In this document: in pieces, positions 15,344-36,578 of the stretch | How positions within the stretch are numbered: position 1 is the stretch's first letter | Layout of the letters: the number at the start of each line of letters is the position of its first letter | The notes under the pieces: model-generated | Databases searched by the model: none | The model's input: the letters and a program-made list of their open reading frames with translations, nothing else | What the model was told of the DNA's origin: nothing | Position numbers and translations under genes: made by a program | Assembly (NCBI GenBank): GCA_028245195.1 | Contig: JAOKCF010000003.1 | Span: 124,001 to 188,000, forward strand | Source: Vicingaceae bacterium | GTDB lineage: Bacteria; Bacteroidota; Bacteroidia; Flavobacteriales_E; Vicingaceae | Direction of reading: 5' to 3' | DNA: 64,000 bases

Positions 15344-15350
15344 ATTACTT

Positions 15351-16850: not shown

Positions 16851-18037
16851 TTTTTCTCGTAGACTCTAACGTAATCTAGAATATATTGATGGGAAGTATA
16901 GCTGCTGTCAATTCCTTTTTTACCTCCCCAACCTCCACCAATAGCAAGGTTTATTATAATATTTTGGGGTTGATTAAATGGCCATTCAAGTGAGTCTGCA
17001 TTCTTATCGTATGTGTAATACAGTTCACCGTCTAAATACCCTTCAATTTTAGTAGGATACCATTCTACAGCATACGTATGAAACTTATTATGCATGCTGT
17101 CCACTTCAATTTCACTGCCAATTTGATTGCCTTGTTTAAAATAATAAGCTCTGGTGTGGCAAGTAGCATGGTTTATTCCATATCCTGTAGTATCATTAAT
17201 TTCATAGCCAACGCACTCGAGCACGTCAATCTCACCACAATATGGCCAAGAGAGTTCATCTTGGTATGTATCTCCTAATAACCATCCTGCAGCCCATGTT
17301 CCTCTTCCCGCTGGAACCTTTGCTCTGAATTCAATTCTCCCATATTTAAAAGAGACTTTGCTTTGCGTAGTTAATCGTGCAGAAGACCAATATTTATCTT
17401 TTTCATTTTTATGAGCTTCAATAATTAATGACCCATTTTCTTGCCGGGCATTTTTCAAATCTGCTGAGGTGTAATATTGTAATTCATTATTTCCCCAGCC
17501 CCAATTCCCGACGTTGTAAATCCATTTTGAATCATCAGCTAGGCCAGCTCCATTAAATTCGTCAGACCACACGAGCGACCACCCTGAACCACTCATGTTT
17601 TGAACTAAAGCACTATCTGTTTCTAGATGGTGCTGAATTAAGTCGAAACGTATGCTATCAATAGTGCTTTCACCTTCGCTATGGAGCTTCATTTGATGTT
17701 CTCCTTTGGCTAATGGAGAACCATCGATTACTCCTTTTCCTACTTCATTTAAAATTATTGAACCCGTAATGTTGTATGTTCTCTCATCTTTATTGTTAAT
17801 GTAATCTTCAATCCATACGGCAGTTGAGTCATCTAAATTTCCCCAAATGCTTACCTGGTAGCGACCTGTTTGAGGTACGTTTAATAAAAATTCAGGCGAA
17901 TTTAAACGAACCAAAATGGATTCCGTTTCGATTGATTTGATTTCTTCGTTTTCTGCAACTTCAAATTTTGAATGAGCAAAAAAGGATGATTGAACAAATA
18001 AGGTTGTGATAAATAGAATAAGAATAATTTTTTTCAT
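16847..18037 (-). CDS. GH16 family endo-beta-1,3-glucanase (laminarinase) with N-terminal beta-rich domain
   Basis: LVWSDEFNG, catalytic GEIDVLE, WPFNQPQNIIINLAIGGGWGG; signal peptide. Confidence 0.9.
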   Translation of the reverse strand: MKKIILILFITTLFVQSSFFAHSKFEVAENEEIKSIETESILVRLNSPEFLLNVPQTGRYQVSIWGNLDDSTAVWIEDYINNKDERTYNITGSIILNEVGKGVIDGSPLAKGEHQMKLHSEGESTIDSIRFDLIQHHLETDSALVQNMSGSGWSLVWSDEFNGAGLADDSKWIYNVGNWGWGNNELQYYTSADLKNARQENGSLIIEAHKNEKDKYWSSARLTTQSKVSFKYGRIEFRAKVPAGRGTWAAGWLLGDTYQDELSWPYCGEIDVLECVGYEINDTTGYGINHATCHTRAYYFKQGNQIGSEIEVDSMHNKFHTYAVEWYPTKIEGYLDGELYYTYDKNADSLEWPFNQPQNIIINLAIGGGWGGKKGIDSSYTSHQYILDYVRVYEKK

Positions 18038-18042
18038 TGTGA

Positions 18043-19581
18043 TTACTTTACATATTTTGCTTCAATTTCTTCAAGAGACTTGCCTTTGGTTTCCGGTAAA
18101 ATTTTCAATAAGACAATAAATCCGGCAAGGGCTATCAATCCAAAGATTAAAAAACTTAATGAATTACCTAAATTGGAAAGCTCCCAAGGGAAAACCTGCT
18201 GAACTACCCAGCTCGTAAAAGAATTTACAAAACCAATTGCCCCAATCGCTAAGCCTCGATATTTAATTGGGTACAATTCTGAAAGCAGAACCCACATCAC
18301 AGGTCCAAGTGAAAAGGCGAAGCAGGCGATGAATCCAAGAATTCCAAACAGTATTAGAGTTGCATTAATATTTGTTGCATATTCAAGAATTACGCCTTCA
18401 TTTTTAGCATAAAGCTGTGTTCCTAGGGATGCTTTCATTTCATTTTTGAAATCCAAATCATTGTCATATACCTTGTCAACAGCAAATGACAATTGACTGG
18501 CCTCCATACCAGATAACTCTATTTTTTGAAGGTCTTGCTCTGTTAATTTATAAGTTGCTTCATTGAAACCGTATGCGCAAAGTATCAAACTTATTGATAT
18601 CCCTGCTATTCCAATTAACAATAAGGGTCTTCTGCCCATTCTATCAATCAAAAAGATAGCAACGAAGGTGAATAAAACAGTAATAAAACTGAGAAGTACT
18701 CCGGAAGAAAATGCAGCGTCGGTCCCAATACCTGTTTGTTTAAATATAGAAGTAGCGTAAAAGTAGACGGCATTTATACCTGTAATTTGTTGTAAAACTC
18801 CAATTACCAAACCAACTAAGAGAATGAACCTTAAAGAAGGTTTGAGCAAGGATAAAAGTGAAACCTTTGAATCGTCTTTCGATTTTGATGCGTTTTCAAT
18901 TGCTTTAATTTCTTCAGAAGCTACTTCAGTTCCATAAATTCTATTTAGAACCCCTTTAGCCTCTTCGACCATATTTTTAGTGTACAACCATCTAGGGCTT
19001 TTAGGAACAAAAAACATGATTATGAAATAAAAGATAGCAGGAATAAACTCTATGCCTAACATCCATCTCCAAACAGTTTCGTCATTGAACAAATCAGTTC
19101 CGGCGGTATTGATTTTGTTTAAATAATAATTACTTAAAAATGCCGCAAAGAAACCGAGTACAATGTTTAGCTGTTGTAATGAAACAAGCTTACCTCTATT
19201 TTTTGCGGAAGATATTTCGGCGATATACGTAGGTGCTAAAATTAAAGCTGCCCCAAACCCTATGCCTCCTATCATTCTTGCGATGTAAAGCATTTCATAA
19301 GAGGTGGCAAAGGCCGAAAATAAGGCAGATACAGCATACAAAAAGGCGACTACAATCAATATTTTTTTACGCCCAATAATATCACTTAACCTACCGGCAA
19401 GTAACATGGCAATCATAGCCGCAAAAGAAGGAGAACTTACTACCCATCCCGATTGCCAGTCGTTTAAATCAAATTCAGGCCCTGCATATGACATAACACC
19501 CGAAATAATGCCGGCGTCAAAACCGAATAAAAAGCCTCCTAACGAAACTACAAATGCAATTAATATTACTTTTCTACTCAT
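18043..19581 (-). CDS. MFS sugar porter family transporter
   Basis: GFDAGIISG, GRLSDIIGRKK, PESPRWL-like (PKSPRWL), PETKGKSLEEIE signatures. Confidence 0.92.
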   Translation of the reverse strand: MSRKVILIAFVVSLGGFLFGFDAGIISGVMSYAGPEFDLNDWQSGWVVSSPSFAAMIAMLLAGRLSDIIGRKKILIVVAFLYAVSALFSAFATSYEMLYIARMIGGIGFGAALILAPTYIAEISSAKNRGKLVSLQQLNIVLGFFAAFLSNYYLNKINTAGTDLFNDETVWRWMLGIEFIPAIFYFIIMFFVPKSPRWLYTKNMVEEAKGVLNRIYGTEVASEEIKAIENASKSKDDSKVSLLSLLKPSLRFILLVGLVIGVLQQITGINAVYFYATSIFKQTGIGTDAAFSSGVLLSFITVLFTFVAIFLIDRMGRRPLLLIGIAGISISLILCAYGFNEATYKLTEQDLQKIELSGMEASQLSFAVDKVYDNDLDFKNEMKASLGTQLYAKNEGVILEYATNINATLILFGILGFIACFAFSLGPVMWVLLSELYPIKYRGLAIGAIGFVNSFTSWVVQQVFPWELSNLGNSLSFLIFGLIALAGFIVLLKILPETKGKSLEEIEAKYVK

Positions 19582-20863
19582 AACTTTTTGTTTTGGTTTG
19601 AACGACAGGAGCTAGTATGCTTTGAAGTAATGCCTCCTCATTGCCTCCATATGTTTTTGAAATAGGATTTCCATTTCTAGTAATACCTTCAAATTGTCCG
19701 GAATCAACTAAACTCCACAAGGTATATTTGACTTCATTTTTAATATTTATCAGGCCAAAGTGATTTTCTGAGGCACGTACATCGTTTGTATCCTTCCAAG
19801 GTTCATCAAAAGCTTCAAAGAAGAAGCAAGCTAACCCTTCTGCAGAGGACCATTCTCTCATGTAATTGTAATACAATTTTTGTTTGAATTCATCGGCCGC
19901 ATGAGATCCGTTAACTCCATAGTTTGAAAAAGCGGAAGTTGCCCAACCCGTTTCGCCAATATGAATGGGCTTATCGGGTGAAATAGAGTGAATGTATTTT
20001 CTGGTAGACTCATATTGAGCAACTGCATAGTTCTTAGCTTTTAACATGCCCTCTTTCGCTAATTCGATTTTGCTTTTTGATAAATCCGTTGAATCAATTT
20101 GCCAAAAATCAGGGTTGTAATGTGTGTCGTGAAAAGGGTAGGTGTGCATTGAAACATAATCAACTGCTTTAATTAATTCGTCCAACTCTTTAGAGAGATA
20201 GTCAGTTGATCCACCACCCCAAGAAGCAAAATTATCTGAGCTGGTAATCCATAAATCGGAACTCAATTCCCCTTGCTCCTTTACTTTTTGAAGTTGCTCA
20301 ACGTAGTTTAATATAACCCTAGGGGAAACAGAATACATTTCAGCCCAATGCACCATAGACTCATTCCCAACTGCAATAATTTTAATGATGTCAGGATACT
20401 TTTTTGCTAGTTCAACTGCTCTTTTTATCTCAGCCCGATTTTCTTTGATGTTTTCTTTCGAATGATTCCTCGAAGAGGTATATGCTTGTTCGCATTCAAT
20501 CCATGCACCCAACATGACATACATTTCAAAAGAAGGATTCTCCTGCTTTAATTCATTAATCGCTTGCAATACTCTTTCAGCGTGAGGAAACTTTTGTGTG
20601 TAGTATGTCCGAATAATTCTAATATCAATCGCTGATAAAACTTTCATGTCCTCCTTTAACTCTTCAACAGAAGGGCACATCTTTCTCGTCTTTTCTCTAT
20701 ATCCGCCAAATGAGATTGCCTGGAAGTTTGGGTTTCCTAAAATATGTTCTGCAGTAATAATTTCTTTTGCTGTTGTGCTATCCACACTGGTGGAGCATGA
20801 AAATACAGCCAAAATTATAATGGGAATTGATATTTTAACGAAATGTTTCATCTTAAGCTTCAA
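19574..20863 (-). CDS. GH17-like beta-1,3-glucanase lipoprotein
   Basis: Lipobox-like AVFSC; IIAVGNES and HIGETGWAT catalytic-type motifs; located in the glucan operon. Confidence 0.8.
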   Translation of the reverse strand: MKLKMKHFVKISIPIIILAVFSCSTSVDSTTAKEIITAEHILGNPNFQAISFGGYREKTRKMCPSVEELKEDMKVLSAIDIRIIRTYYTQKFPHAERVLQAINELKQENPSFEMYVMLGAWIECEQAYTSSRNHSKENIKENRAEIKRAVELAKKYPDIIKIIAVGNESMVHWAEMYSVSPRVILNYVEQLQKVKEQGELSSDLWITSSDNFASWGGGSTDYLSKELDELIKAVDYVSMHTYPFHDTHYNPDFWQIDSTDLSKSKIELAKEGMLKAKNYAVAQYESTRKYIHSISPDKPIHIGETGWATSAFSNYGVNGSHAADEFKQKLYYNYMREWSSAEGLACFFFEAFDEPWKDTNDVRASENHFGLINIKNEVKYTLWSLVDSGQFEGITRNGNPISKTYGGNEEALLQSILAPVVQTKTKSYE

Positions 20864-21758
20864 ATCTTTGATGACTTTTTAATTTTGTGTTCGTGGCATC
20901 CGATAAAATATTCAAGTAATTACGATGATAATTTACTAATTCATTAATTGGGCTCTTTATTATTTTACCTGCTTTATATCCTTGTTTTTTTAATTCTTCA
21001 ATGAGTATGTCTTTGAAAATAAATGCGAGACTACCTACGAAACCAACTTGCTTAGACTTGTATTCTGAAAAACAGCCTACATGTATTTCAATAAATTTGG
21101 CAAAACCATGACGTAACATGTCCATAATGTATTGTTCCTGTTTATGTTTTGCAATAAAAGGCATGAACGATGCTAGATATACATTGGCATGTATATTACC
21201 ATAAATCTTTTCTCTAGCCTCTCCCCATGTTAATTGATAGGTTGCTTCAAAATCTTCTTGAATGACTGTCGGCATGCGTTTATAGAAAAAGTCAGATAAA
21301 AGTTGTTTGCCGAAGTATCCACCTCCTGCTTCGTCTCCCATAACGAAACCTAACGCTGGAATTTTTTCAATTAGATTCTCTCCGTCAAAGTAACATGAGT
21401 TAGATCCAGTTCCTATTATGCAACTAATTAAAGGTTGATCTTCATATAAAGAATATGCTGCAGCAAGAAGGTCGTGATCAACAACGATTTCTGCATTTCT
21501 AAATACTTGTACTAAACCATTAATAATTCGCTGCTTTAATTTTGGACTAGAACAGCTAGCACCGTAAAAGTAAACGTTGTTTACTTTATCTTTCGAAGCA
21601 AATAAATCGACACACTGACTGAGTGTTTCAGCCACGTATTCAGTGCTATGGAAGTCTGGGTTAAATCCTTGTGTTTTAAAATTGCTTTCTACCAAGCCTT
21701 CATCGTTTAAGATAACCCATTCACATTTAGTTGAGCCGCTTTCTGCTATTGCTATCAT
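20853..21758 (-). CDS. BadF/BadG/BcrA/BcrD-type ATPase, putative glucokinase/N-acetylglucosamine kinase
   Basis: MIAIAESGSTKCEWVI (phosphate 1), CIIGTGSNSCYFDG, GDEAGGGYFGK. Confidence 0.83.
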   Translation of the reverse strand: MIAIAESGSTKCEWVILNDEGLVESNFKTQGFNPDFHSTEYVAETLSQCVDLFASKDKVNNVYFYGASCSSPKLKQRIINGLVQVFRNAEIVVDHDLLAAAYSLYEDQPLISCIIGTGSNSCYFDGENLIEKIPALGFVMGDEAGGGYFGKQLLSDFFYKRMPTVIQEDFEATYQLTWGEAREKIYGNIHANVYLASFMPFIAKHKQEQYIMDMLRHGFAKFIEIHVGCFSEYKSKQVGFVGSLAFIFKDILIEELKKQGYKAGKIIKSPINELVNYHRNYLNILSDATNTKLKSHQRFEA

Positions 21759-21760
21759 CG

Positions 21761-22339
21761 TTATTTTGTTTTATAGTTTTTTTGAAACCAAGATCCACCA
21801 ACTGCAATTACATTGCTTAGTGCCAAATAATCTTGACTTGTTGCTTCTGTTATTCCTCCGGTAGGGCAAAATTTAAGCGTTGGGAATAACCGTCCAAACA
21901 TCTTTAACGCATCAACTCCACCATAAAGGTTAGCCGGAAAAAATTTAAGGTATTCTAAACCTAATTCTTGAGCCTGTATTATTTCGCTCGGAGTAGCAAC
22001 CCCCGGCAGGAATGGGATTTTTGACTTAGTCATGTATTCAAATAAGTTAACAGTTAAACCCGGGCTTACAATAAAATCAGCTCCGATTGATTTCAACTGA
22101 TCTACTTGAAGGGAAGAGATAACTGTTCCTGCGCCTACTTGAATTGTGTCACTGAATTTCTTCTTTAACAATTCAATGGCTTTCAAGCCATATGGTGTTC
22201 GCAAAGTAATTTCAACACAAAAAACATTACCCTTAATTAAATAATCCATAAATGCTTCAGGGTCATCTTCTTTTTGAAAAGTAACAACCGGAACCAGCGG
22301 GTTATTTTTTAAAATTTTATTTATTGATTGATTTCCCAT
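21761..22339 (-). CDS. eda: 2-keto-3-deoxy-6-phosphogluconate aldolase
   Basis: VEITLRTPYGLKAIELL, VGAGTV, FFPANLYGG, FCPTGGI; adjacent to edd. Confidence 0.93.
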   Translation of the reverse strand: MGNQSINKILKNNPLVPVVTFQKEDDPEAFMDYLIKGNVFCVEITLRTPYGLKAIELLKKKFSDTIQVGAGTVISSLQVDQLKSIGADFIVSPGLTVNLFEYMTKSKIPFLPGVATPSEIIQAQELGLEYLKFFPANLYGGVDALKMFGRLFPTLKFCPTGGITEATSQDYLALSNVIAVGGSWFQKNYKTK

Positions 22340-22342
22340 TTC

Positions 22343-24145
22343 TTAAATTATAAAAGATGCTCCTTCTTCGCTTTCGCTCACTAAGGTTTTTAATTGGTTG
22401 AATAACTCTCTGCCAACTCCATAAGACTTATGATCATCAGTAGTTAAATTCTCTCGTGCTTGAACTTCTTCAATATTCAAGCAGTTTAATATTCCATTTT
22501 CAGGGTCTAATTCAATCAGGTCCCCGGTTTGTAATTTGGCAATCATTCCGCCTTTTGCCGCTTCAGGACTTAAGTGAATTGCTGCAGGAACTTTACCTGA
22601 CGCACCTGACATTCTTCCATCTGTTACTAGCGCTACTCTGTGTCCGGCAAACTGAAGTAAACTAAGGGTAGGGGTTAATTTATGAAGCTCAGGCATTCCA
22701 ATGCTGTGAGCTCCTTGATTTTTTACAACTACTACTACATCCTTATTTAATTCTTTTCTTTTAAACGCAGAAATTACTTCGTCTTGATCGTCAAAAACAA
22801 CCGCCTTAGCCTTCACATACCTGTGTTCGGGTTTAACCGCTGAAATTTTAATTACAGAACGTCCAAGGTTGCCTTTTAAAACTTTCAGTCCTCCTGTGCT
22901 AGCAAAAGGGTTACTAACGGGTCTTAAAATATTTTCATCGAGTGAGTTTTTTGGTACAGGCCTCCATTTCAATTCTCCATTCTCAATAAATGGTTCGTTA
23001 AAATAATGATCTAAACCAGTACCCATATTTGTTTTTACATTGCTGTTTAAGAAACCTCCATCGCTTAATGTCTTCATAAGGAAACCCATTCCTCCGCAAG
23101 CTTGAAAGTGATTAATATCTGCAGTGCCATTCGGGTATACTTTAGTAATGGATGGAACTACATCAGAAACATCGTTAAAGTCGTCCCAATTCACTATTAT
23201 TCCTGCACTTTTAGCAATGGCGATAATATGAATGGTGAGATTAGTGCTGCCTCCAGTAGCAACTAAACCAACTAATGCATTTACAATGCTTTCAGGACTA
23301 ATTATTTCGTAAAGGGGTGTGTATCCTTCTTTCTGAGGAGTTATTTCCAACAATCGTTTGACAGCGTAGTCGTTTAATTTTTCTCTTAACTCAGTTCCGG
23401 GGGTAATAAATGACGCGCCTGGGAGGTGCACTCCCATTATTTCCATTAACATTTGATTGCTGTTCGCAGTTCCGTAAAACGTGCAAGTTCCTGCAGAATG
23501 ATATGATGCGGACTCAGCTTCTAACAACTCTGCTCTTCCGATCTTTCCATCGGCATAATCTCTTCTAAATTCGGCTTTTTCATCATTTGTGATTCCTGAT
23601 TCCATGGGACCACCTGGGATAAAAATGTAAGGTAAATGACCAAATCGAAGAGCGCCCATCATCATTCCCGGAACAATCTTATCACAAATGCCCAAGCACA
23701 ATCCTCCATCAAACATTTGATGTGACATTCCAACTGCTGTTGACAATGCTATAACATCTCTACTAAAAAGAGAAAGCTCCATTCCTGCTTGTCCTTGCGT
23801 TACACCATCGCACATTGCTGGAACTCCAGAGGCAACTTGAGCAACACCACCGTATTTTTTAGCAGAAGCTTTTAATTTTGGTGGATAGTCTTCATAGGTT
23901 TTATGGGCGCTTAGCATGTCATTGTATGCAGTTATGATAGCTAAGTTCGATTTTACTTCTGCACTTAGATCTACCTTTTCGTCATCTGCACATGCGGCAA
24001 ATGCATGAGCTAAATTTCCACAAGCTAAATCTGCTCTTGTTACTTTGTTGTTATGAACAGTTCTCATCAAGTCTAAGTACTCTTTTCTTGATACTTTAGA
24101 GCGTTCCTTTATTCGTTTTGTTATTTCTATTATCGTTTTATTCAT
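22343..24145 (-). CDS. edd: 6-phosphogluconate dehydratase
   Basis: 600 aa IlvD/Edd family; CDGVTQGQAGMELSLFSRD, TDGRMSGASGKVPAAIHLSPEA. Confidence 0.95.
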   Translation of the reverse strand: MNKTIIEITKRIKERSKVSRKEYLDLMRTVHNNKVTRADLACGNLAHAFAACADDEKVDLSAEVKSNLAIITAYNDMLSAHKTYEDYPPKLKASAKKYGGVAQVASGVPAMCDGVTQGQAGMELSLFSRDVIALSTAVGMSHQMFDGGLCLGICDKIVPGMMMGALRFGHLPYIFIPGGPMESGITNDEKAEFRRDYADGKIGRAELLEAESASYHSAGTCTFYGTANSNQMLMEIMGVHLPGASFITPGTELREKLNDYAVKRLLEITPQKEGYTPLYEIISPESIVNALVGLVATGGSTNLTIHIIAIAKSAGIIVNWDDFNDVSDVVPSITKVYPNGTADINHFQACGGMGFLMKTLSDGGFLNSNVKTNMGTGLDHYFNEPFIENGELKWRPVPKNSLDENILRPVSNPFASTGGLKVLKGNLGRSVIKISAVKPEHRYVKAKAVVFDDQDEVISAFKRKELNKDVVVVVKNQGAHSIGMPELHKLTPTLSLLQFAGHRVALVTDGRMSGASGKVPAAIHLSPEAAKGGMIAKLQTGDLIELDPENGILNCLNIEEVQARENLTTDDHKSYGVGRELFNQLKTLVSESEEGASFII

Positions 24146-24149
24146 AATG

Positions 24150-24824
24150 TCATTTACTCCAGAATATTTCTGGTTTAATATAATTTTGATCGATAAATAC
24201 TTTGATAGGATACTTTTTTTCTGTGTTCACATCCAATGCATCTAATATTTGTTTTTTTTCTTCTCCATAACAGTGAAGGTATAAATTTTCAGTATTCAAA
24301 AGCGCTTTTCTGGTAAAAGAGATGCGCTGATAAGGAGCGGTTGTAGGATTAGTGATAATTAGACTAGCAGTATTTTGCAAATCTAGTCCAAGATGTAATT
24401 CTTTGCAGCTTGGAAAAAGTGATGCAGTATGCCCATCTGTGCCCATTCCTAAAATAACAACTGTAAATGGGCGAGTTATCTTCTTGATTGCGCTTTCCAC
24501 TAATTGTAAGTTTAAGTGAGCATCTGTTGAATTTACAATCAAAGGAATGAAATTAGCATTTCGGGTATTATTAACAAGTAAATGTTGCTTTATTAATGTG
24601 CCATTTTGATCGGGATGTCCATCCGGCAAAAATCGATCATCCACAGGTATGACAGTAACTTTTTCCCAGTCAATGTCTTTGTTCGAAAGTAGGTCGAACA
24701 ACTTAACAGGGGTAGAACCTCCGGATACTAATAAAGAAGCCTTACCATTATTATTAATTGACTTTTCTAATTTTTGACAAATTAAAGTTGAAAGCTCTTT
24801 TTCTATAAGAGATCTAGTCTTCAT
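24150..24824 (-). CDS. pgl: 6-phosphogluconolactonase
   Basis: LLVSGGSTPVKLF, VDDRFLP, LGMGTDGHTASLFP; between zwf and edd. Confidence 0.93.
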   Translation of the reverse strand: MKTRSLIEKELSTLICQKLEKSINNNGKASLLVSGGSTPVKLFDLLSNKDIDWEKVTVIPVDDRFLPDGHPDQNGTLIKQHLLVNNTRNANFIPLIVNSTDAHLNLQLVESAIKKITRPFTVVILGMGTDGHTASLFPSCKELHLGLDLQNTASLIITNPTTAPYQRISFTRKALLNTENLYLHCYGEEKKQILDALDVNTEKKYPIKVFIDQNYIKPEIFWSK

Positions 24825-26313
24825 CTGTTTTTCTTTCTTGAACCTTAAGAATATGCCGAGACTTTACCCAGGCTCTAGCTTCATCCATGATTAAATCTCC
24901 TGGTCCTTTCGTTCCTGCCTCATACAATATATTTGGAACTTTTTCTGATTTCCAGTTTTTTAAAATAGACTCAACCCACTCCCAAGAAGCCTTTACTTCG
25001 TCTCTTCTCATAAAAAGCGTTTGGTTTCCTCGAACTACATCCATCAAAAGCCGTTCATATGCATCAGGGAAACGGTCGTTAAAGTGGTCTGCATAGTCTA
25101 ATTCTAAAGAAAATGGTTTGTAACGGTAGCCTCCTGGTCCAGGGATTTTTACCATCTGTTGTAGTTCAATTCTTTCTTCTGGTTGTAAACGAATTGTCAA
25201 CTTATTATTATCGATTTCCTTTTTCTCTGGAAATATATTGTGGGGAACGTGCTTGAAATTGATAACAATTTCAGAAAATCGATGAGGCATTCTTTTGCCT
25301 GTCCTCAAATAAATTGGGACACCACTCCATCTCCAATTATCGATGTATGTTTTTAACGCTACAAAAGTTTCAGTGCTAGAGTCATATTTATCGATATCTT
25401 CTAGATAGGAGGGAAGATGACCTTCCTTAGTTTTGCCTCTAGTATATTGACCTCTAACGGTATCTGTAGAAATTGTTTCTTTTGTAAAGGGTCTTAAAGC
25501 TTTTAAAACCTTTAACTTTTCATCTCTCACTTGATCCGCGTCCAGTGTGATAGGAGGCTCCATAGCTATCAAGCAAAGAAGCTGTAATAGGTGGTTTTGA
25601 ACCATATCCTTTAATGCACCGTACTTATCATAGAAGTTCCCTCTTGTTCCAACACCTAATGACTCAGCTACAGTAATTTGTATGTTGTCAATCTCTTGAG
25701 CATTCCAAGAGCGTTCAAAAATATTATTTGCAAACCTCAAAACCATTAGATTCTGGACAGTTTCCTTACCCAAATAATGGTCAATTCTATATATCTGACT
25801 TTCTTTAAAATATTGAGCAACTTTATCGTTTATTTCTTCAGAACTTATTAAGTCTGTACCTAAAGGCTTTTCCAATACGACCCGAGAGTTGTCGTTAATT
25901 AAACCAAGTTGACCTAGAAAAGAAGAAATCTGACCAAAAATACTTGCAGGAGTAGCCAAATAAAAGGCACGCACTCTATCTCCTTTCTTTTCAAAATACT
26001 TTTTAATGCCCGTTGCTTCTTTCGAATTATTTATGTCAACAACCTTATAGGTAATGATTGACAATAAATTGGCTAAAATTTTCTCGTCTAGACTTTCAAT
26101 GTGCTTACTTAACTCCGCTTTCAAAACAGCTCCAAACTCTTCGTTTGTTAGCTTTTTTCTTGCTAAAGCCAATATTCGATCCTCTGTACTAATTTGCTTT
26201 TCAAGCAATCTGTAGTACAGGGCAGGATAAATTTTTCTGAACGACAAATCTCCGTCTCCACCAAATATGACGAGATCGAAGTGTGTTTTTATTTCTGAGG
26301 CAAGGTTTTTCAT
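24814..26313 (-). CDS. zwf: Glucose-6-phosphate 1-dehydrogenase
   Basis: FGGDGDLSFRKIYPALY (nucleotide binding), RIDHYLGKETVQN active site. Internal ATG (MKNLASEIKTHFDL) preferred to the longer supplied ORF start. Confidence 0.95.
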   Translation of the reverse strand: MKNLASEIKTHFDLVIFGGDGDLSFRKIYPALYYRLLEKQISTEDRILALARKKLTNEEFGAVLKAELSKHIESLDEKILANLLSIITYKVVDINNSKEATGIKKYFEKKGDRVRAFYLATPASIFGQISSFLGQLGLINDNSRVVLEKPLGTDLISSEEINDKVAQYFKESQIYRIDHYLGKETVQNLMVLRFANNIFERSWNAQEIDNIQITVAESLGVGTRGNFYDKYGALKDMVQNHLLQLLCLIAMEPPITLDADQVRDEKLKVLKALRPFTKETISTDTVRGQYTRGKTKEGHLPSYLEDIDKYDSSTETFVALKTYIDNWRWSGVPIYLRTGKRMPHRFSEIVINFKHVPHNIFPEKKEIDNNKLTIRLQPEERIELQQMVKIPGPGGYRYKPFSLELDYADHFNDRFPDAYERLLMDVVRGNQTLFMRRDEVKASWEWVESILKNWKSEKVPNILYEAGTKGPGDLIMDEARAWVKSRHILKVQERKTDED

Positions 26314-26437
26314 CAGAAACAAATATAAGATACTTAAAGTAATATTTACAATAAGGGTTTTTGAATTGACATATCTAATAATTTTCAGCAATAAAGAGAA
26401 CTAGCTGTGATTGATAAACTCCCTTATTTAAAGGAAT

Positions 26438-27190
26438 TTACATCTCAAAGCTAAATCCTTTTTCTAACAAGCTCTCGTATTTGTCTTTATCGAAAGAAAA
26501 TAATTTTGCAGGTCTATGAGACACTTTAGTTTGAAATTCCTTCGTGTCTTGTAACAAGTTCATGCTTAATATTTTTTTCCTAAAGTTGGCTTTATCAAAG
26601 GATGTATTAAGTATAGCTTCATAAAGTTCTTGTAATTGTCCAAGAGTAAATTTTTTTGGAAGAAGCTCAAATCCTATTGGCTGCAATCGGACACGTTCGC
26701 GGAGTGTCGAAAGTACTTGGTTAACAATCTCGTTGTGATCGAAGGCAAGTTGAGGTAATCCTTTTACATCGACCCATACCACGTTAGATGCCCATGAGCT
26801 GGCAAGTGGCTGATACCTATCTACACTTATTAAGGAGTAATAGCCTACTGTAACAACTCTACCTATTGGGTGTCGATCTACTTGACCATATGATTTCGAT
26901 TGGGTCAAGTATACATCTTCTAAACCAGTTAAATCCTTTAAAACTCTATCAGCAGCCAATTCCATATCTTCTGTTGGGTAAACTAAATCTCCAGGCAAGG
27001 CTTTTTTGCCTTTATGAGGCTCAGTTCCTCTTTCAATCACAAGAAGCTTTAAGCCATTCTCATGGTAACCTAAAATCACACAATCAACGGAAAGTGCAAA
27101 TTGAAAGAAATTTTCTATTGGAATTTTATAAAAGGCACCAAATTGGTGTCCTAAAATATCCTCTGTCACAGAAGACCTTTTCTTGTTCAT
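26438..27190 (-). CDS. Nudix-domain transcriptional regulator (NrtR/AraR-like) with C-terminal winged-helix
   Basis: Degenerate Nudix box ALPGDLVYPTEDMELAADRVLKDLTGL plus wHTH-like C-terminus FTLGQLQELYEAILNTSFDKANFRKKIL; divergent from susC. Confidence 0.83.
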   Translation of the reverse strand: MNKKRSSVTEDILGHQFGAFYKIPIENFFQFALSVDCVILGYHENGLKLLVIERGTEPHKGKKALPGDLVYPTEDMELAADRVLKDLTGLEDVYLTQSKSYGQVDRHPIGRVVTVGYYSLISVDRYQPLASSWASNVVWVDVKGLPQLAFDHNEIVNQVLSTLRERVRLQPIGFELLPKKFTLGQLQELYEAILNTSFDKANFRKKILSMNLLQDTKEFQTKVSHRPAKLFSFDKDKYESLLEKGFSFEM

Positions 27191-27483: not shown

Positions 27484-30400
27484 ATGATGAAATACTTATT
27501 TTTATTTGCTTCGTTTATTCTAATCGGGAGTAATACTTTTGCTCAAGATTCTACAATTACGGGTCAAGTAAAAGGTGAAGACGGCCTGACAATTCCGGGT
27601 GCAAGCGTTGTTGTAAATGGGACTGCAAATGGAGTTGCCACAGATATTGATGGTAATTTCTCTATTAGGATAGCTAATTTAAAAACAGCAATTTTAAAAT
27701 TTTCCTATCTGGGTTATGCGACTCAAGAAATTGCTGTTGCTGGAAGACAAAAAATTAACATTGTTTTAAAGGAGTCAGCCAAGAAAATTGATGAGGTAGT
27801 TGTTGTTGGGTATGGAACTTCCACAAAGAAAACATTAACCGGAGCTACAAGTCAGGTTGGTGGAGAAGATGTTCAAAAATTAAATGTTGCCCGTGTTGAT
27901 CAAGCATTACAGGGTCAAGTTTCTGGTGTTGCAATTAATACGAACTCAGGCTCACCAGGTGGAGGGTCAAGCATCAGAATACGTGGTCTTTCTACTTTTG
28001 GAGATAACGACCCTCTTATTTTAGTGGATGGAGTAGTTTATGATTCTGAAGGATTAAATGCTTTGAATCCTAATGATATCGCATCTGTTAACGTATTAAA
28101 AGATGCGACGGCAGGTATTTATGGAGTGAGAGCAGCCAACGGTGTAATTATAATTGAAACAAAAAAAGGAGCACTTAATTCTGCGCCTCAAGTTGAGTTT
28201 AGCTCTTATTTAGGAGTGCAGAATACGGCTAGAAGATTAGATTTATTGAATGCAACCGAGTATGCAGTTATCAAAAATGAAATGTTTGGATCAGCCGGAG
28301 ATGCAATTCCATTTAACAATACATCCATAGGGGAAGGAACCGATTGGCAAGATGAAGTCTTTCAATCTGCTTTAATTCAGAATTACAATTTTTCAGTTTT
28401 AGGTGGTAATAAAAACTCTACATACTCGGCAGGTGCGTCTTATTTCACACAAGATGGAATCGTAGGTGGCGATAAATCTAACTTTGAACGGATTAATGCT
28501 CGCTTGAATTTGGGAAATCAATTAAATGACAAAGTGAAGTTGAATTCAGTTATTTTGTATACCAACGAAAAAAGACGAGCGCTGCCAGAAAATGGAATTG
28601 GCTCTGTTTTATATAATACGATAAATGCATTCCCAAATGAACCTGTGAAAACAGCAGACGGGAATTACTCTTATTTAGAGGAGGTGAGTGATATAATTAA
28701 TCCATTAGCACAAATAGAGAACAGCCAAAACTTAGCAATTGTAAATAAAATTGTTGGGAAAGAGGAATTAGTATTTGAAATTAACGACAATTTCACGTTT
28801 ACTAATCGTATAAATTATAATTACGCTTCTGTAGATTTTAAATCATTTTCTCCTTTGGTTTGGTACGGTCAAGGGAAAGCGCAGAACACGGCATTGAACG
28901 ATAATTTAGATCCTACTCGTGTAGAAATTGCTGACAGTGTTTTCATAGAACGAGGGGCAAGTGTGTTTGAATCTCGGTCTACTTATGTAGACTTAAACGG
29001 AGAAAGTTATTTGAACTATAACCGAATTTTTAACGAAGACCATTCTGTGAAAGGAACCATTGGTGTTTCAGTATTCCAGAGAAGTGGTAGTCAGTTAAAT
29101 GGATCGGCTTTCAATATCCCGGGCAACTCTGTAGAATATGCAGATATTTCTGCAAACCTTGCACCCGGGGGTTTCTTGAATAATACTGGCTCTTTCGAAT
29201 TCGAAGAGCGTTTATTGTCAACGTTTTTTAGAGGAGAGTACGGTTTTAAAGGAAAATACTTGGCTTCGTTGATTATAAGAAGGGACGGTTCTTCAAAATT
29301 TGGTCCGAACAATAGATTTGGTACCTTCCCAACTATATCAGCTGCATGGTTGATTTCGGAGGAAGAGTTCTTCGATTTCAAAAAAATAACCTTTGCGAAA
29401 CTACGTGCCAGTTATGGAATTTCAGGAAATGATCAAATTCAAAACTTTGCCTACAGAGCTCAGTTGGATGGAGAAGGTGTATACGTATTTGATGACGTGA
29501 TTGTCCAAGGTGTCGCTATTGGTAGAGCCTCTAATCCTGATTTAAGGTGGGAAAGCACCAGGCAGTTCAATTTGGGTTTAGATCTTGTTATTGGTGACAA
29601 CTTCAACATTACAACAAACTATTTTATTAAGAATACAAAAGATTTATTATTCCAACCAGAAGTGTCTGCCGTGCTCGGAACAAATGGCCCTGGAGGTCAA
29701 TCTCCTATTGTAAATGCAGGAGATGTATCCAATAAAGGTATTGAGCTTGAGCTTGCCTATTATTCAGACCGTAATAAGAAACTACAATATGCAATTAACT
29801 TCAATACGACTTACCTTCGCAACGAAGTTCTTAAAACGCCTGAAGGTGTTGAATTTATTCCGGGTGCTGCATTTGGAGTTGGAGGTGGAGTAGCAACTCG
29901 ATTCGAGGAAGGTTTTGCTATTGGATATTTTCATGGATTTGAAACGGATGGAATTTTCCAGTCTCAAGAAGAAATTGATAATGCTACAGTGATTCAGGAA
30001 GGCGCAAAACCAGGAGATATCAGATACGTTGACCAGAACGGAGACGGTGTGATTAGCTTTAATGATGACTCAGATCGAAAAGAGCTTGGCTCTGCTATAC
30101 CTGACTTTACGTTTGGCTTGAATTTAAGTGCCTCTTATAGAAACTTCGACTTTTCAATGAATATTTTCTCAGCAGTAGGGCAAGAAATTATACGGAACTA
30201 CGAACGTCAGCAACCATATGCAAACCAATTAGATTATGTAATCGATCGTTGGGTAGGAGCAGGAACATCTGATGAGAATCCAAGATTAACAACTGAAGCA
30301 AATCGAAATGGAGAGTTTTCGGATTATTATGTCGAAAACGGAGCTTTTATGAGGATTAAAAACATGCAAATTGGTTACACACTTCCCAAAGAGCTAATTA

Positions 30401-30582
30401 AAAAATTGAAATCGAAGTCAATTCGCATATATGTCTCTGTAAATAATCTTTTAACGGTTACACAATACAGAGGATTTGATCCGGAGATTGGATCTGTTGG
30501 AGGAGCTCTTGCAGCAGGTGTTGACTACGGCTTTTATCCTCAAGCTAGAACAGTAATGGGTGGGTTTAATTTTAAATTTTAA
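27484..30582 (+). CDS. susC: SusC/RagA-type TonB-linked outer membrane transporter
   Basis: Signal peptide, carboxypeptidase-regulatory-like domain, VVVGYGTSTKKTLTGA plug start, beta-barrel C-terminus ending in F. Confidence 0.96.
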   Translation: MMKYLFLFASFILIGSNTFAQDSTITGQVKGEDGLTIPGASVVVNGTANGVATDIDGNFSIRIANLKTAILKFSYLGYATQEIAVAGRQKINIVLKESAKKIDEVVVVGYGTSTKKTLTGATSQVGGEDVQKLNVARVDQALQGQVSGVAINTNSGSPGGGSSIRIRGLSTFGDNDPLILVDGVVYDSEGLNALNPNDIASVNVLKDATAGIYGVRAANGVIIIETKKGALNSAPQVEFSSYLGVQNTARRLDLLNATEYAVIKNEMFGSAGDAIPFNNTSIGEGTDWQDEVFQSALIQNYNFSVLGGNKNSTYSAGASYFTQDGIVGGDKSNFERINARLNLGNQLNDKVKLNSVILYTNEKRRALPENGIGSVLYNTINAFPNEPVKTADGNYSYLEEVSDIINPLAQIENSQNLAIVNKIVGKEELVFEINDNFTFTNRINYNYASVDFKSFSPLVWYGQGKAQNTALNDNLDPTRVEIADSVFIERGASVFESRSTYVDLNGESYLNYNRIFNEDHSVKGTIGVSVFQRSGSQLNGSAFNIPGNSVEYADISANLAPGGFLNNTGSFEFEERLLSTFFRGEYGFKGKYLASLIIRRDGSSKFGPNNRFGTFPTISAAWLISEEEFFDFKKITFAKLRASYGISGNDQIQNFAYRAQLDGEGVYVFDDVIVQGVAIGRASNPDLRWESTRQFNLGLDLVIGDNFNITTNYFIKNTKDLLFQPEVSAVLGTNGPGGQSPIVNAGDVSNKGIELELAYYSDRNKKLQYAINFNTTYLRNEVLKTPEGVEFIPGAAFGVGGGVATRFEEGFAIGYFHGFETDGIFQSQEEIDNATVIQEGAKPGDIRYVDQNGDGVISFNDDSDRKELGSAIPDFTFGLNLSASYRNFDFSMNIFSAVGQEIIRNYERQQPYANQLDYVIDRWVGAGTSDENPRLTTEANRNGEFSDYYVENGAFMRIKNMQIGYTLPKELIKKLKSKSIRIYVSVNNLLTVTQYRGFDPEIGSVGGALAAGVDYGFYPQARTVMGGFNFKF

Positions 30583-30587
30583 GAAAG

Positions 30588-32069
30588 ATGAAAAAAATTA
30601 ATTACAAGAATTTTGGAATAGTTTTAATAGCAATCTTATTCTCCTTAACAGCTTGTGAGAAGTTCTTGGACTTAGAGCCTCCATTTAGCCAAGATGCAGA
30701 TAATTATTTTACGGAGCCTTCTCATTACGAACTAGCATTGATAGGAGCGTATGATTTGCTTCAAGGGTCATTTATTAATTTATGGATTGGAGAAATCGCT
30801 TCTGACAACTCAATTGCAGGTGGAGAAAGTGTTACAGATACTCAAGGCTTGCATGAAATAGAATCAATGACTCATGGGGCTGTAAATAGAGAATTGAGAA
30901 GTGTATTTCAATGGAATTATGCTGGGATTAGTAGAGCTAATTTCATTTTAGAAAATAAAAATAACATTCAATTCGAAGGTAAACAACAAATTATTGCTGA
31001 GGCAACATTTTTGAGAGGCTACTATTATTTTCAATTAGTAAAATATTTTGGTGATGTTCCATTAGTTATTGATAAGAGATTAGGAGCAGATGAGGTGACG
31101 GAGATTGAAAGAAGTAGTAAGGAAGATGTTTATGCCCAAATTGAAGCAGATTTAAGTTTTGCTGCCTCCAATTTAAATCCGGTGAATCCTGTAAAAGGAA
31201 GAGTTAATAAATGGGCAGCGTTAGCTTTACTAGGTAAGGTTCAATTGTATCAAAATAAGTTTTCTGAAAGCGCAGTAAGTTTAGACCAAGTGATTAACTC
31301 TATGCAGTATCAGTTGATAAGAGACTATAGAAATTTATTTTTAGTTGGAAACGAAGGCCACTCAGAGGCTGTTTTTGATGTTCAATATAGTGGTTTAGAA
31401 GGTGGAGGATATGGTTGTTTAATTTGCCTTGAAGGAAATGCGGCCCCGGGATTTCATGGTATCCGTCAATACGATGGACCTATTTATGGAGATGGTAATA
31501 GTTACAATCTTCCAACTCAAGACTTGTACGCTTCTTTTGAGTTAGCCGATGACATTCGAAGAAACGCCACAGTTTTAGATATTGATTCGTTTATTGGGCA
31601 GCAAGCGAACCCGGCAAATATTTCTTATGCCATCGGCGGTGGCGGGCACACCGGACTATACAATAATAAGTACATTAAAAAGCTAGGTGAAATAGGACTT
31701 CCAGATAATGATTTAACAAGCCCTGTAAATAATACAGTAATCAGGTATGCCGATGTGCTTTTAATGGCAGCAGAAGCGCATAATCGATCCAACAATGATG
31801 GACAAGCGTTGTTATATTTAAACGAGGTACGAGCTAGAGTTAACTTAACTGGAGTAAGCGCTGCAGGACAAGCGTTAACAGACGCTATATGGGATGAAAG
31901 ACGATTTGAGTTATCAGGTGAAGGTCATCGTTTTTTCGATTTGGTAAGAACCGGACAGGCAGCGTCAAGAATAAATGGATTTCAAGTAGGGAAACATGAA
32001 CTATTTGCAATACCACAAATTGAAATTTCTTTAGCCGGTGGAAATTGGAATCAAAATTCGGGATATTAA
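30588..32069 (+). CDS. susD: SusD/RagB-type outer membrane glycan-binding lipoprotein
   Basis: Lipobox LTACEKFLDLEPP, RGYYYFQLVKYFGDVPLV, WDERRFELSGEGHRFFDLVRTG. Confidence 0.96.
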   Translation: MKKINYKNFGIVLIAILFSLTACEKFLDLEPPFSQDADNYFTEPSHYELALIGAYDLLQGSFINLWIGEIASDNSIAGGESVTDTQGLHEIESMTHGAVNRELRSVFQWNYAGISRANFILENKNNIQFEGKQQIIAEATFLRGYYYFQLVKYFGDVPLVIDKRLGADEVTEIERSSKEDVYAQIEADLSFAASNLNPVNPVKGRVNKWAALALLGKVQLYQNKFSESAVSLDQVINSMQYQLIRDYRNLFLVGNEGHSEAVFDVQYSGLEGGGYGCLICLEGNAAPGFHGIRQYDGPIYGDGNSYNLPTQDLYASFELADDIRRNATVLDIDSFIGQQANPANISYAIGGGGHTGLYNNKYIKKLGEIGLPDNDLTSPVNNTVIRYADVLLMAAEAHNRSNNDGQALLYLNEVRARVNLTGVSAAGQALTDAIWDERRFELSGEGHRFFDLVRTGQAASRINGFQVGKHELFAIPQIEISLAGGNWNQNSGY

Positions 32070-32082
32070 AAACTAAAAAACG

Positions 32083-33435
32083 ATGACAAAAAATATTTTA
32101 ATTCTACTCGCAATTTCCCTTTTGGGTTTTTCATCTTGTAAAGACGATGAGCCTGAGTTAGGGCCTGCGCCAACGGCAGCAGATGCGGCATTCACTTATA
32201 CAGAGTCTTCAACAAGTCCTAATATTCTTCAATTCAAGGCAGCTAGAACGGATGTAGTAGCAGTTTGGGATTTTGGTAATGGAACATCTGCTGAAGGACC
32301 ATCCGGAATAGGAACGTATCCAAATAAGGGAACGTATGCAGTTACGTTAACGATTTTTACTAAAGGGGGTAGTGCTACTCGAACAGATAGTGTTGTAATA
32401 GCTGCTGATGATTTTGCATTGCTGAACGATCCGTTGTTCAGACTTCTTTCTGGCGGTATAGACAGTGTGAATGGTAAAACTTGGGTTTTAGATTCTGCAA
32501 ATGCCGGCCATTTTGGGGTTACATATAGTTCAACAGGAGATTTTGGTTACTTACCTAATGACTACAGCGCAGCAGCAAATAACCATGGTGGTTTTGGTAT
32601 GTACGATGATCGGTATAATTTTAGTTTGCAAGGTTATCAATTCAACATGATTACAAACGGCAATGTTTTTATCGACAATTTACAAGCTGGAAATTTTCCT
32701 GGATCAACTCAGATCAGTGGCTCAGAAGATTATATTGCACCTTTAGCGAATCAAATTGGCGAGAACTGGTCCATATCAAAGGGTGTGGATACTACCCTTA
32801 CTGTTTCAGGTAGGTCATTTATGGGGTTTTACACTGGAGTTAAGGTATATAAAATTCTTAATCTCACTGAAAATGAATTATACCTTAGGTATGCAGACGC
32901 GAGTAATGCAAATTTGCAATGGTACATTCGATTAATCCCTGAAGGTTACGTTCCAGGTTCTGGTGGAGGTGGAAGCACTGGTGTTGAGTTGCCTATAGAT
33001 TTTGAGGGAACAGATCCGGGTTTTTCAAGTTTTAATGGTAGTACTGCGAGCGTGGTTAGTAATCCAAATCCAACTGGTGACAATACAAGTGCAAACGTAC
33101 TTCAAACCATAAAAGGTGGCTCTAACGACGCAGGTATTTACGTTGACTTAGGGTCTGAATTGGATTTGTCAACAAACACCAAAATTGCCTTTAAACTATT
33201 TAATTCTACCAATCCATTCGTTGGTGGAACGTGCAGAGTTAAATTAGAAGACCAGTCTAACCCTCAAAATAGTGTTGAAGTTGATGTAACACTTGTAGCA
33301 ACTCCCGCGTGGATTCAATATGAGGCTGATTTTGCAGGGTCTGCATCTGGGCAATATGATAGAATTGTGTTTTTCCCAGGTTGGGCAACCACTGGAACAG
33401 ACACATATAATTTGGATGACATAGAACAAAAATAA
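32083..33435 (+). CDS. PKD-domain surface lipoprotein (SusE-position glycan-binding protein)
   Basis: Lipobox GFSSCKDDE, PKD VWDFGNGTSAEG, C-terminal module resembling those in the downstream T9SS protein. Confidence 0.82.
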   Translation: MTKNILILLAISLLGFSSCKDDEPELGPAPTAADAAFTYTESSTSPNILQFKAARTDVVAVWDFGNGTSAEGPSGIGTYPNKGTYAVTLTIFTKGGSATRTDSVVIAADDFALLNDPLFRLLSGGIDSVNGKTWVLDSANAGHFGVTYSSTGDFGYLPNDYSAAANNHGGFGMYDDRYNFSLQGYQFNMITNGNVFIDNLQAGNFPGSTQISGSEDYIAPLANQIGENWSISKGVDTTLTVSGRSFMGFYTGVKVYKILNLTENELYLRYADASNANLQWYIRLIPEGYVPGSGGGGSTGVELPIDFEGTDPGFSSFNGSTASVVSNPNPTGDNTSANVLQTIKGGSNDAGIYVDLGSELDLSTNTKIAFKLFNSTNPFVGGTCRVKLEDQSNPQNSVEVDVTLVATPAWIQYEADFAGSASGQYDRIVFFPGWATTGTDTYNLDDIEQK

Positions 33436-33436
33436 T

Positions 33437-34567
33437 ATGACTTCATTTAGATTAGCTTTAGTACTTTGTTTAGCATCGATAATTGTTTACTCAGGCTGCA
33501 AGGTAGATGAAGGTTCAGACTTCTCTGTAACGCAACCCTCTAATTTAGAAGTGGTTGTGACCGTAGACTCAGTCGTGGAAGGTCAAGTAAGTGTGACGGC
33601 AAATGCAAGTAATGCAAATAATTACATTATTACGTTTTACGAGCAAGGTGGAGTTACTTCGGAAGAATCGAAAAATGGAGAAGCAACATATCAGTACAGT
33701 TCTTCTGGTTCATACACCATCAATGTTAAAGCTAATACTACCCCAACAGACTTTATCGAGACTAACGTAAATGTTATTCCATATTTTCGTTTAGGTCCTC
33801 CAACAAATGATGGGATGCCACCAACAGACGGATACAGCAGTCCTATATCATATCCTGGCTACAATTTAGTTTGGAATGATGAATTCGACGGAACATCTCT
33901 TTCTACAATAGATTGGAATTATGAAATAGGAACAGGAAATGGCGGTTGGGGAAATAATGAACTGCAATATTATCGTCAAGAGAATGCTTCTGTCAGTAAT
34001 GGAATATTAACGATTCAAGCGAAAAAGGAATTTTTCAATACCAGTGCTTATACCTCTTCTCGAATAACCACGCAAAATAAACATAGCTTTCAATACGGAC
34101 GAATTGATGTAAGGGCTGCACTTCCTTTCGGACAAGGCCTGTGGCCTGCCTTATGGATGTTGGGTGACAATATTTCTGCTGTGGGTTGGCCATCTTGTGG
34201 CGAAATTGATATTGTGGAGTTAGTTGGAGGGAATAATAGGGATAACGAAGTGCATGGAACCGCACACTGGGAGTTGAACGGTTCACGCGTTCAGGCTGGC
34301 GGAAGCAATAGGTTGCAAAATGGTGCTTTTGCTCACGAGTTCCATGTGTTTTCCATCGTTTGGGATAGTCAAAAAATAGAATGGTATAGAGATGATGTCA
34401 AATATCAAACATTAGACATCACACCTGCGGACTTACGTGAATTTCAAAACAAGTTTTTCTTAATCTTTAATGTAGCCGTTGGAGGTGATTGGCCAGGCTC
34501 ACCAAATGCTTCGACCCAATTTCCTCAGTACATGTTTGTTGATTATGTAAGAGTATTTCAGAGGTAA
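33437..34567 (+). CDS. GH16 family laminarinase lipoprotein with N-terminal PKD-like domain
   Basis: Lipobox VYSGCK, LVWNDEFDGTSL, GEIDIVELVG. Confidence 0.92.
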   Translation: MTSFRLALVLCLASIIVYSGCKVDEGSDFSVTQPSNLEVVVTVDSVVEGQVSVTANASNANNYIITFYEQGGVTSEESKNGEATYQYSSSGSYTINVKANTTPTDFIETNVNVIPYFRLGPPTNDGMPPTDGYSSPISYPGYNLVWNDEFDGTSLSTIDWNYEIGTGNGGWGNNELQYYRQENASVSNGILTIQAKKEFFNTSAYTSSRITTQNKHSFQYGRIDVRAALPFGQGLWPALWMLGDNISAVGWPSCGEIDIVELVGGNNRDNEVHGTAHWELNGSRVQAGGSNRLQNGAFAHEFHVFSIVWDSQKIEWYRDDVKYQTLDITPADLREFQNKFFLIFNVAVGGDWPGSPNASTQFPQYMFVDYVRVFQR

Positions 34568-34724: not shown

Positions 34725-36578
34725 ATGAAAAAAATAGTACTTTCTTTTATTCTCTCATCGGTTTGTCTTCTAGGGATGAGTCAAAAATCACAGATAGACT
34801 TACCAATTACATGGGATGATACTGCTAACGTTGATTACTCTGTTATTGGCTTTGGAAATGATACGGCAAATTTGGCTGTAGATCCGACCAGTGCCTCTAA
34901 CATTGTTCTCGGAATTGTTAAGCCTTCTGGTGGTGGAACTCAAATATGGGCTGGAGTTGTTTTAGGTAATGATTCATTAGCCTCTGCAATTCCTTTCTCA
35001 GCAGGAAATACAACCATTATTGCACGAGTTTATTCTTCAGCGATTGGGATTCCAATGAGATTAAAGGTTGAAAACGAGTCTAATGCAGCAATTGCCTCAG
35101 AAACTGAGGTTAATACTACTGTTGTTGGTTGGGATACACTATCATTTGATTTTTCAACTCCTGTAACTGGTACTCCGGGACTAGTATTTACGAACACGTA
35201 TGATAAAATGGCATTTTTTCCAAATTTTGGAACAGTTCCAGCAACAGATGAAACATACTATATCGATTATGTTGCATTTATAGGCGGTAGTTCAGGGCCA
35301 TCTAAAGCGCAGATTGATTTGCCAATTAACTGGGACGATACAGCGAATGTGAACTATGCAGTAATCGATTTTGGAGGAAACGTATCTTCTTCAGTTGTTG
35401 ATCCAACAAATGCTTCTAACCTAGTTTTAAAAACAGAAAAACCTTCAACAGCGCAAGGATGGGCAGGAACTACTTTAGGTTCTGCATTAGCAACTGCAAT
35501 ACCTTTTTCCGCTTCAAATACAACAATGGAAGCTATAATATGGTCTGCAGCAAGCGGAATACCTGTATTAATGAAAGTTGAAGATCAAACAAATGCTGGA
35601 ATTTTTGTTGAAACGTTAGCTAGCACTAGCCGAGTTGGTTGGGATACCTTAACCTTTGATTTTGCAAACCCTAGTCCTAACGCTCAAGCGTTAAACTTTG
35701 CAAATACATATGACAAAGTTTCTTTGTTTTTTAACTTTAATGTTGTCCCATCAGCGACTGAAACGTATTATACTGATGATGTATGGTTTGGAGGAGCTTC
35801 TTCAGGTCCATCAAAGGCTCAAATTGATTTGCCAATCAATTGGGATGATACTTCAAATGTAAGCTACAGTATAACTCCTTTCGGTGGAAATATTTCTACT
35901 GTAGTTACTGATCCAACGAACGCTTCCAATTTGGTATTGCAAATTGACAAACCAGCTACAGCTCAATCTTGGGCAGGAACTACCTTAGGTAGTTCAGCAT
36001 TAGCAACAGCTATCCCTTTTGCAACAACTAGAACAGTGTTGCAGGCTAAAGTATGGTCAGCAGCAAGTGGAATACCTATATTATTGAAAGTAGAAGATCA
36101 AACAAACGCAGGAATATTTGTTGAAACGTTAGCATCTACAAGTAAAGTTGGTTGGGATACATTAACTTTCGATTTTTCAAATCCCGGGCCAAATGCTCAA
36201 GCTCTGAATTTTTCAAATACTTATGATGTTATATCTATCTTTTTTAACTTCAACGTAGTTCCTTCAGCTCTTGAAACGTACTATTTAGATAACATATCTT
36301 TTGGTCAATTGATTACAGGGATTTCAGAATATAAGTCTAATCCAACATTCTCTGTTTACCCTAATCCGGCGAATGATGTTGTTACAATTGATGCTACTTT
36401 ATTGAATAAAGTGAATCAAGTAATAGTAAAAAATGCTGTAGGACAGATTGTATTACAAAAGAATGTTTCAGCGATTGATAACAAGTTGAACGTATCAAAC
36501 TTTGAGAATGGAGTTTATTTTATGATTCTATCTTCTGAATTAGGAACGAAGACTTCTAAATTCATGGTTACGAAATAA
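34725..36578 (+). CDS. Secreted T9SS protein with three tandem ~170-aa beta-sandwich-like modules, candidate glycan-binding protein
   Basis: Signal peptide; repeats starting SQIDLPITWDDTANVDYSV / AQIDLPINWDDTANVNYAV / AQIDLPINWDDTSNVSYSI; C-terminal SVYPNPANDVVTI..KFMVTK sorting domain. Confidence 0.82.
   Translation: MKKIVLSFILSSVCLLGMSQKSQIDLPITWDDTANVDYSVIGFGNDTANLAVDPTSASNIVLGIVKPSGGGTQIWAGVVLGNDSLASAIPFSAGNTTIIARVYSSAIGIPMRLKVENESNAAIASETEVNTTVVGWDTLSFDFSTPVTGTPGLVFTNTYDKMAFFPNFGTVPATDETYYIDYVAFIGGSSGPSKAQIDLPINWDDTANVNYAVIDFGGNVSSSVVDPTNASNLVLKTEKPSTAQGWAGTTLGSALATAIPFSASNTTMEAIIWSAASGIPVLMKVEDQTNAGIFVETLASTSRVGWDTLTFDFANPSPNAQALNFANTYDKVSLFFNFNVVPSATETYYTDDVWFGGASSGPSKAQIDLPINWDDTSNVSYSITPFGGNISTVVTDPTNASNLVLQIDKPATAQSWAGTTLGSSALATAIPFATTRTVLQAKVWSAASGIPILLKVEDQTNAGIFVETLASTSKVGWDTLTFDFSNPGPNAQALNFSNTYDVISIFFNFNVVPSALETYYLDNISFGQLITGISEYKSNPTFSVYPNPANDVVTIDATLLNKVNQVIVKNAVGQIVLQKNVSAIDNKLNVSNFENGVYFMILSSELGTKTSKFMVTK

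Follow-up and report, generated by a model that had tools for sequence, protein, structure and literature searches.

The gene downstream of a GH16 lipoprotein in this Vicingaceae genome encodes a protein built almost entirely of tandem modules, raising the question of what those modules are and what they bind. The initial annotation of this DNA, a 64,000-nucleotide stretch hereafter called the window, had proposed a candidate uncharacterised glucan-binding domain and a multivalent laminarin scaffold. We found that the surroundings form a complete laminarin locus, containing a SusC/SusD pair, GH16 and further beta-1,3-glucan enzymes. The forward genes run in the order SusC, SusD, SGBP-B homologue with an extra module, GH16 lipoprotein and three-module protein, and a divergent set lies on the opposite strand:

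27484–30582, plus strand: SusC-like TonB-dependent transporter (TIGR04056, E=1.2e-247)
30588–32069, plus strand: SusD-like lipoprotein (PF07980, E=5e-29)
32083–33435, plus strand: SGBP-B-like lipoprotein with a PKD domain (Pfam), a core homologous to 7kv5 (BfSGBP-B; phmmer E=7e-36) and a module
32983–33432, plus strand: a fourth, diverged module copy, the C-terminal domain (aa 301-450) of the SGBP-like lipoprotein (E=7e-24; reference profile E=2.6e-14)
33437–34567, plus strand: GH16 lipoprotein, laminarinase-like (PF00722, E=7.9e-23)
11879–27190, minus strand: divergent part of the laminarin locus (Pfam; 6hq6, E=0)

The N-terminus of the GH16 protein ends in a lipobox (...VYSGC), bearing out the earlier placement of the module gene just downstream of a GH16 lipoprotein. 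The divergent genes encode a GH149-like beta-1,3-oligoglucan phosphorylase, a GH30, a second GH16, an MFS sugar transporter and a weakly GH17-like protein, together with a BadF-type ATPase-fold protein, KDPG aldolase, Edd, G6PD and an NrtR-like regulator. The putative phosphorylase (11879–15343, minus strand; 1154 aa) has no Pfam match and is a clear homologue of the bacterial beta-1,3-oligosaccharide phosphorylase 6HQ6 (GH149, E=0), which argues for a phosphorolytic branch in the locus. We also observed that the Entner-Doudoroff genes (KDPG aldolase, Edd and G6PD; 21761–26391, minus strand) are built into the laminarin locus, where they are adjoined by the NrtR-like Nudix/winged-helix regulator (26438–27190). 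In the 157-nt gap before the module gene, no terminator was predicted and promoter-like matches occurred at chance level only. The lipoprotein at 32083–33435 is homologous to the BfSGBP-B type (7KV5-7KV7) but has an extra C-terminal module that is absent from the 290-residue 7kv5 chain, whereas the three-module protein lacks the SGBP-B core.

We then resolved the 617-aa protein into the following parts:

34725–36578, plus strand: non-catalytic three-module protein, 617 aa, predicted to be secreted by the T9SS (ORF; PF18962 tail; no catalytic family)
34725–34784, plus strand: N-terminal signal peptide, approximate, read by eye from the sequence (MKKIVLSFILSSVCLLGMSQ)
34794–35306, plus strand: module 1, aa 24-194, first-position type (profile E=4e-71; groups with congeners' first modules, SH-aLRT 99)
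35313–35816, plus strand: module 2, aa 197-364, middle type, amplified in congeners (E=2e-74; AlphaFold pLDDT 95.6; top PDB fold match 8qx6)
35823–36329, plus strand: module 3, aa 367-535, last-position type (E=5e-72; groups with congeners' last modules)
36354–36569, plus strand: T9SS type A sorting domain, aa 544-615 (PF18962, E=3e-12 by Pfam; TIGR04183, E=1.6e-10 by NCBIfam)

The three modules of ~165 aa recognized by profile begin with IDLPI motifs at 34794, 35313 and 35823, within 9-12 nt of the unit starts originally given, and share pairwise identities of 58, 51 and 74%. Module 2 used as a query recovered module 3 at E=1.6e-80 and module 1 at E=3.1e-49, which excludes chance as the source of the repeats. 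Neither Pfam nor NCBIfam returned a catalytic domain in the protein, in keeping with the lack of catalytic motifs and the terminal T9SS domain that had been read from the sequence. The signal peptide and the C-terminal sorting domain together mark the protein as a T9SS type A cargo, and the T9SS core component GldK is present in the genome, above its cut-off (E=5e-174). An AlphaFold model of the full-length protein was poor (pLDDT 59) and was left out of the analysis.

To what family, then, do the modules belong? Pfam and NCBIfam held no real family match for them; a Big_4 match at aa 18-42 fell below the cut-off and was rejected, as were filamin and gamma carbonic anhydrase matches from phmmer, which we regarded as noise. 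A single-sequence search of the PDB already returned 8qx6_A at E=5e-6, and a profile built from 18 modules of the window and of related genomes, searched against all PDB sequences, matched 8qx6 at E=4.6e-20 with the next match at E=1. The alignment spans positions 2-160 of 169, indicating homology over the full length. The AlphaFold model of module 2 (mean pLDDT 95.6) likewise returned 8qx6 as its best Foldseek match in the PDB (E=2e-7, TM 0.78), indicating the same fold, and the PDB record 8QX6, released 2024-09-18, is titled 'Novel laminarin-binding CBM X584'. In the reverse direction, a profile made from 22 8qx6-type modules matched each window module (E~1e-17) and the SGBP C-terminus (E=2.6e-14), and nothing else among the 42 window ORFs and reversed decoys. 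Foldseek matches ranking after 8qx6 included CBM11, CBM30, CBM22 and CBM4 (E 1e-6 to 1e-3); we rejected membership in these families, which share the general beta-sandwich fold but reach a TM of about 0.5-0.6 only, as against 0.78 for 8QX6, and went unmatched at E<=10 when the module profile was searched against PDB sequences. A viral fold library yielded generic beta-sandwich matches only. Collectively, these data demonstrate that the window modules share ancestry and a beta-sandwich fold with the laminarin-binding CBM X584, which makes them probable carbohydrate-binding modules. The domain is thus not new but a distant relative of a laminarin-binding module solved in 2024: the proposed glucan binding is made likely by this homology, while the label 'uncharacterised' falls to a crystallised homologue that is also the top fold match.

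Closer inspection of a tree of 128 modules revealed that the three window modules do not group inside the founding 8qx6 clade. They fall in a clade of 55 rows, apart from the 23-row 8qx6 clade (SH-aLRT 99 each), and are ~30% identical to 8qx6; nearly all SGBP C-terminal copies form a group of their own. Due to this separate placement, we regard the window modules as a subfamily or sister family rather than strict members of CBM X584/CBM102. The initial annotation had held that a clear assignment to an established CBM family would speak against its proposal; the 8QX6 homology goes most of the way to such an assignment, but leaves the modules in a clade of their own. They resemble CBM X584 in their beta-sandwich, their length and their conserved aromatic/K/E/E/W/D positions. 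Position 50 (module numbering) is aromatic in nearly all modules, being W in the window and Y in 8qx6, and K88, E90, E100, W110 and D155 are kept across groups, including all three window modules. The strand pattern would have K88, E90 and E100 facing outward, which suggests that they belong, together with W50, to a putative sugar site. The diverged copy at the C-terminus of the SGBP-like lipoprotein, two genes upstream (separate search, E=1.2e-23), had escaped the initial annotation. It carries D at position 50 in this genus, as opposed to W in most other SGBP-B copies; judged by this residue, binding by the genus's SGBP copy may be altered or lost.

Relatives of 8qx6 at 71-81% identity occur in Gramella, Christiangramia and Gillisia, with one at 53% in Leeuwenhoekiella, and the module is present three or four times at the protein C-terminus. 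Their module protein is encoded after SusC and SusD and ahead of a GH16 with an N-terminus similar to the core of the window's SGBP, and the Christiangramia sediminis protein also has a PKD domain. The closest relatives (81%) occupy the last of four module positions in Christiangramia and Gramella SGBPs, between SusCD and GH16. This matches the arrangement that Zuehlke et al. 2024 (doi 10.1111/1462-2920.16624) reportedly described, with four copies of CBM102 in an SGBP and with CBM103 attached to a GH16_3; we take CBM X584 (8QX6) to be CBM102. Like these SGBPs, the window protein is non-catalytic, carries the module in tandem and belongs to a laminarin locus; it differs in carrying a T9SS signal and in lying downstream of GH16, not in the SusE position.

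The gene order is kept in congeners, with three (G003), four (G002), four (G004) or five (G001) modules, as well as in another genus of the same family (G007, four modules). Among the congeners, the first and last module types do not vary, and every additional copy belongs to the middle type. These extra copies are 91-99% identical to each other, which points to their recent tandem duplication and loss. Four loci of other families (L064, L070, L081 and L084) show this order too, again with a T9SS module protein downstream, and some of them carry CBM48-like repeats.

Across the class, the module was present at E<=1e-5 in 90 of 395 sampled genomes. A laminarinase-like GH16 was found in 75 of these 90 genomes compared to 54 of the 305 others (Fisher p=2e-30, kinship ignored). 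The control PL7 was likewise associated with modules across genomes (p=9e-6), so genome-level co-occurrence reflects in part the lifestyle of polysaccharide specialists. The gene neighbourhood and fusions to GH16 weigh more: among class-level loci fetched for modules, a laminarinase-like GH16 lay within the stretch in 29/60 and a SusCD pair in 19/60, and three proteins (L075, L118 and L120) fuse the module to GH16. Other architectures were also observed. Giant proteins that contain beta-helix, fn3, MAM and in some cases GEVED domains (L020:3-3983, L021:4343-12307 and L023:8044-14286) have one or two module copies; a 2090-aa protein (L086:4219-10488) combines cohesin, dockerin, a laminarin-CBM-like module and a T9SS tail; and at L103:7889-9796 the partners of the module are a calcineurin-like phosphoesterase and a T9SS tail instead of a glucanase, with a similarly placed module at L104.

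This wider distribution bears on the ligand. The modules may be true CBMs for something else, such as an alpha-glucan, an exopolysaccharide made by the cell itself or a glycan of algal walls, with the laminarin genes having recruited a broadly useful sticky protein. PF00722 GH16 is absent from four module-bearing genomes of at least 97% completeness (G182, G293, G322 and G355), and the window's GH17 and GH30 found no match in them, the GH17 query having no positive control there. The modules fetched from three of these genomes lie in large multi-module proteins without GH16 (L079 from G182, L066 from G293 and L067 from G322), and CBM48-like repeats appear in the G322 protein and in the G238 homologue of the G182 protein. 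Modules of the same clade thus occur beside CBM48/AMPK1_CBM-like repeats, GH13 amylase-family genes are present in 6 of 7 tested genomes without a close laminarinase-like GH16, and some CBMs are promiscuous, all of which would suit a different ligand. However, G322 has neither GH16 nor GH13, so an alpha-glucan cannot cover every case, and the CBM48-like matches mostly fail as single stretches. The window gene itself lies in a laminarin locus beside an SGBP with the same domain, and its nearest characterised relative binds laminarin; for the window protein we therefore consider another ligand unlikely. For the clade at large, the presence of modules in GH16-less genomes and in giant proteins means that the ligand may be broader than laminarin.

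Those giant proteins raise a further alternative, namely that the modules fasten cells to the surfaces of algae or detritus, or act as structural repeats, with nutrient capture secondary or absent. Within this genome and this family, giant T9SS proteins that combine MAM, fn3 and beta-helix domains contain close homologues: L020:3-3983 belongs to the window's own genome (C4), complete giant proteins end in a T9SS tail, and no glucanase was seen next to the giant MAM/fn3/beta-helix homologues. Folds similar to the module also occur in many phage tail proteins. An adhesin or spacer does not readily account for functional-looking residues kept in every window module, nor for the synteny with SusCD-SGBP-GH16 conserved in congeners and other families, and we regard this role as very unlikely here.

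We infer that the 617-aa protein is probably secreted by the T9SS, has no catalytic role and binds beta-1,3-glucan multivalently, keeping laminarin close to the GH16 and SusCD at the cell surface. Against this reading we counted the ~30% identity to 8qx6, the separate clade, the GH16-less genomes, the CBM48-like scaffolds and the giant proteins. The multivalent laminarin scaffold envisaged by the initial annotation likewise appears likely from the tandem modules and the laminarin locus, as far as sequence can indicate. The protein would be exported by Sec and then the T9SS, and would be either surface-anchored or released. Through avidity, several modules acting together would keep soluble laminarin beside the locus's own surface GH16, SGBP and SusCD and would thereby raise its local concentration ahead of cleavage and import. 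Having no enzyme of its own, the protein would hand laminarin on to GH16 and SusCD, and tandem duplication of the middle type would tune the module number. More tentatively, the class may possess widespread T9SS-secreted, enzyme-free multi-CBM scaffolds built from a distinct sister family of the laminarin CBM, of variable copy number and with CBM48-like repeats mixed in, that serve extracellular glucan capture with a ligand range of their own and in part independently of laminarinases.

These findings describe a little-explored variation, an enzyme-free, predicted secreted scaffold of modules related to a known type, whose number varies between close species. They also link a domain that Pfam and NCBIfam miss, for all its spread through the sampled class, to a solved laminarin CBM, through which many unannotated proteins could receive names. 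Laminarin ranks among the major carbon stores of the sea; if the proposed function is correct, bacteria would capture it by secreted, multivalent, enzyme-free binders in addition to surface lipoproteins, and would adjust valency between close species by duplicating one module type.
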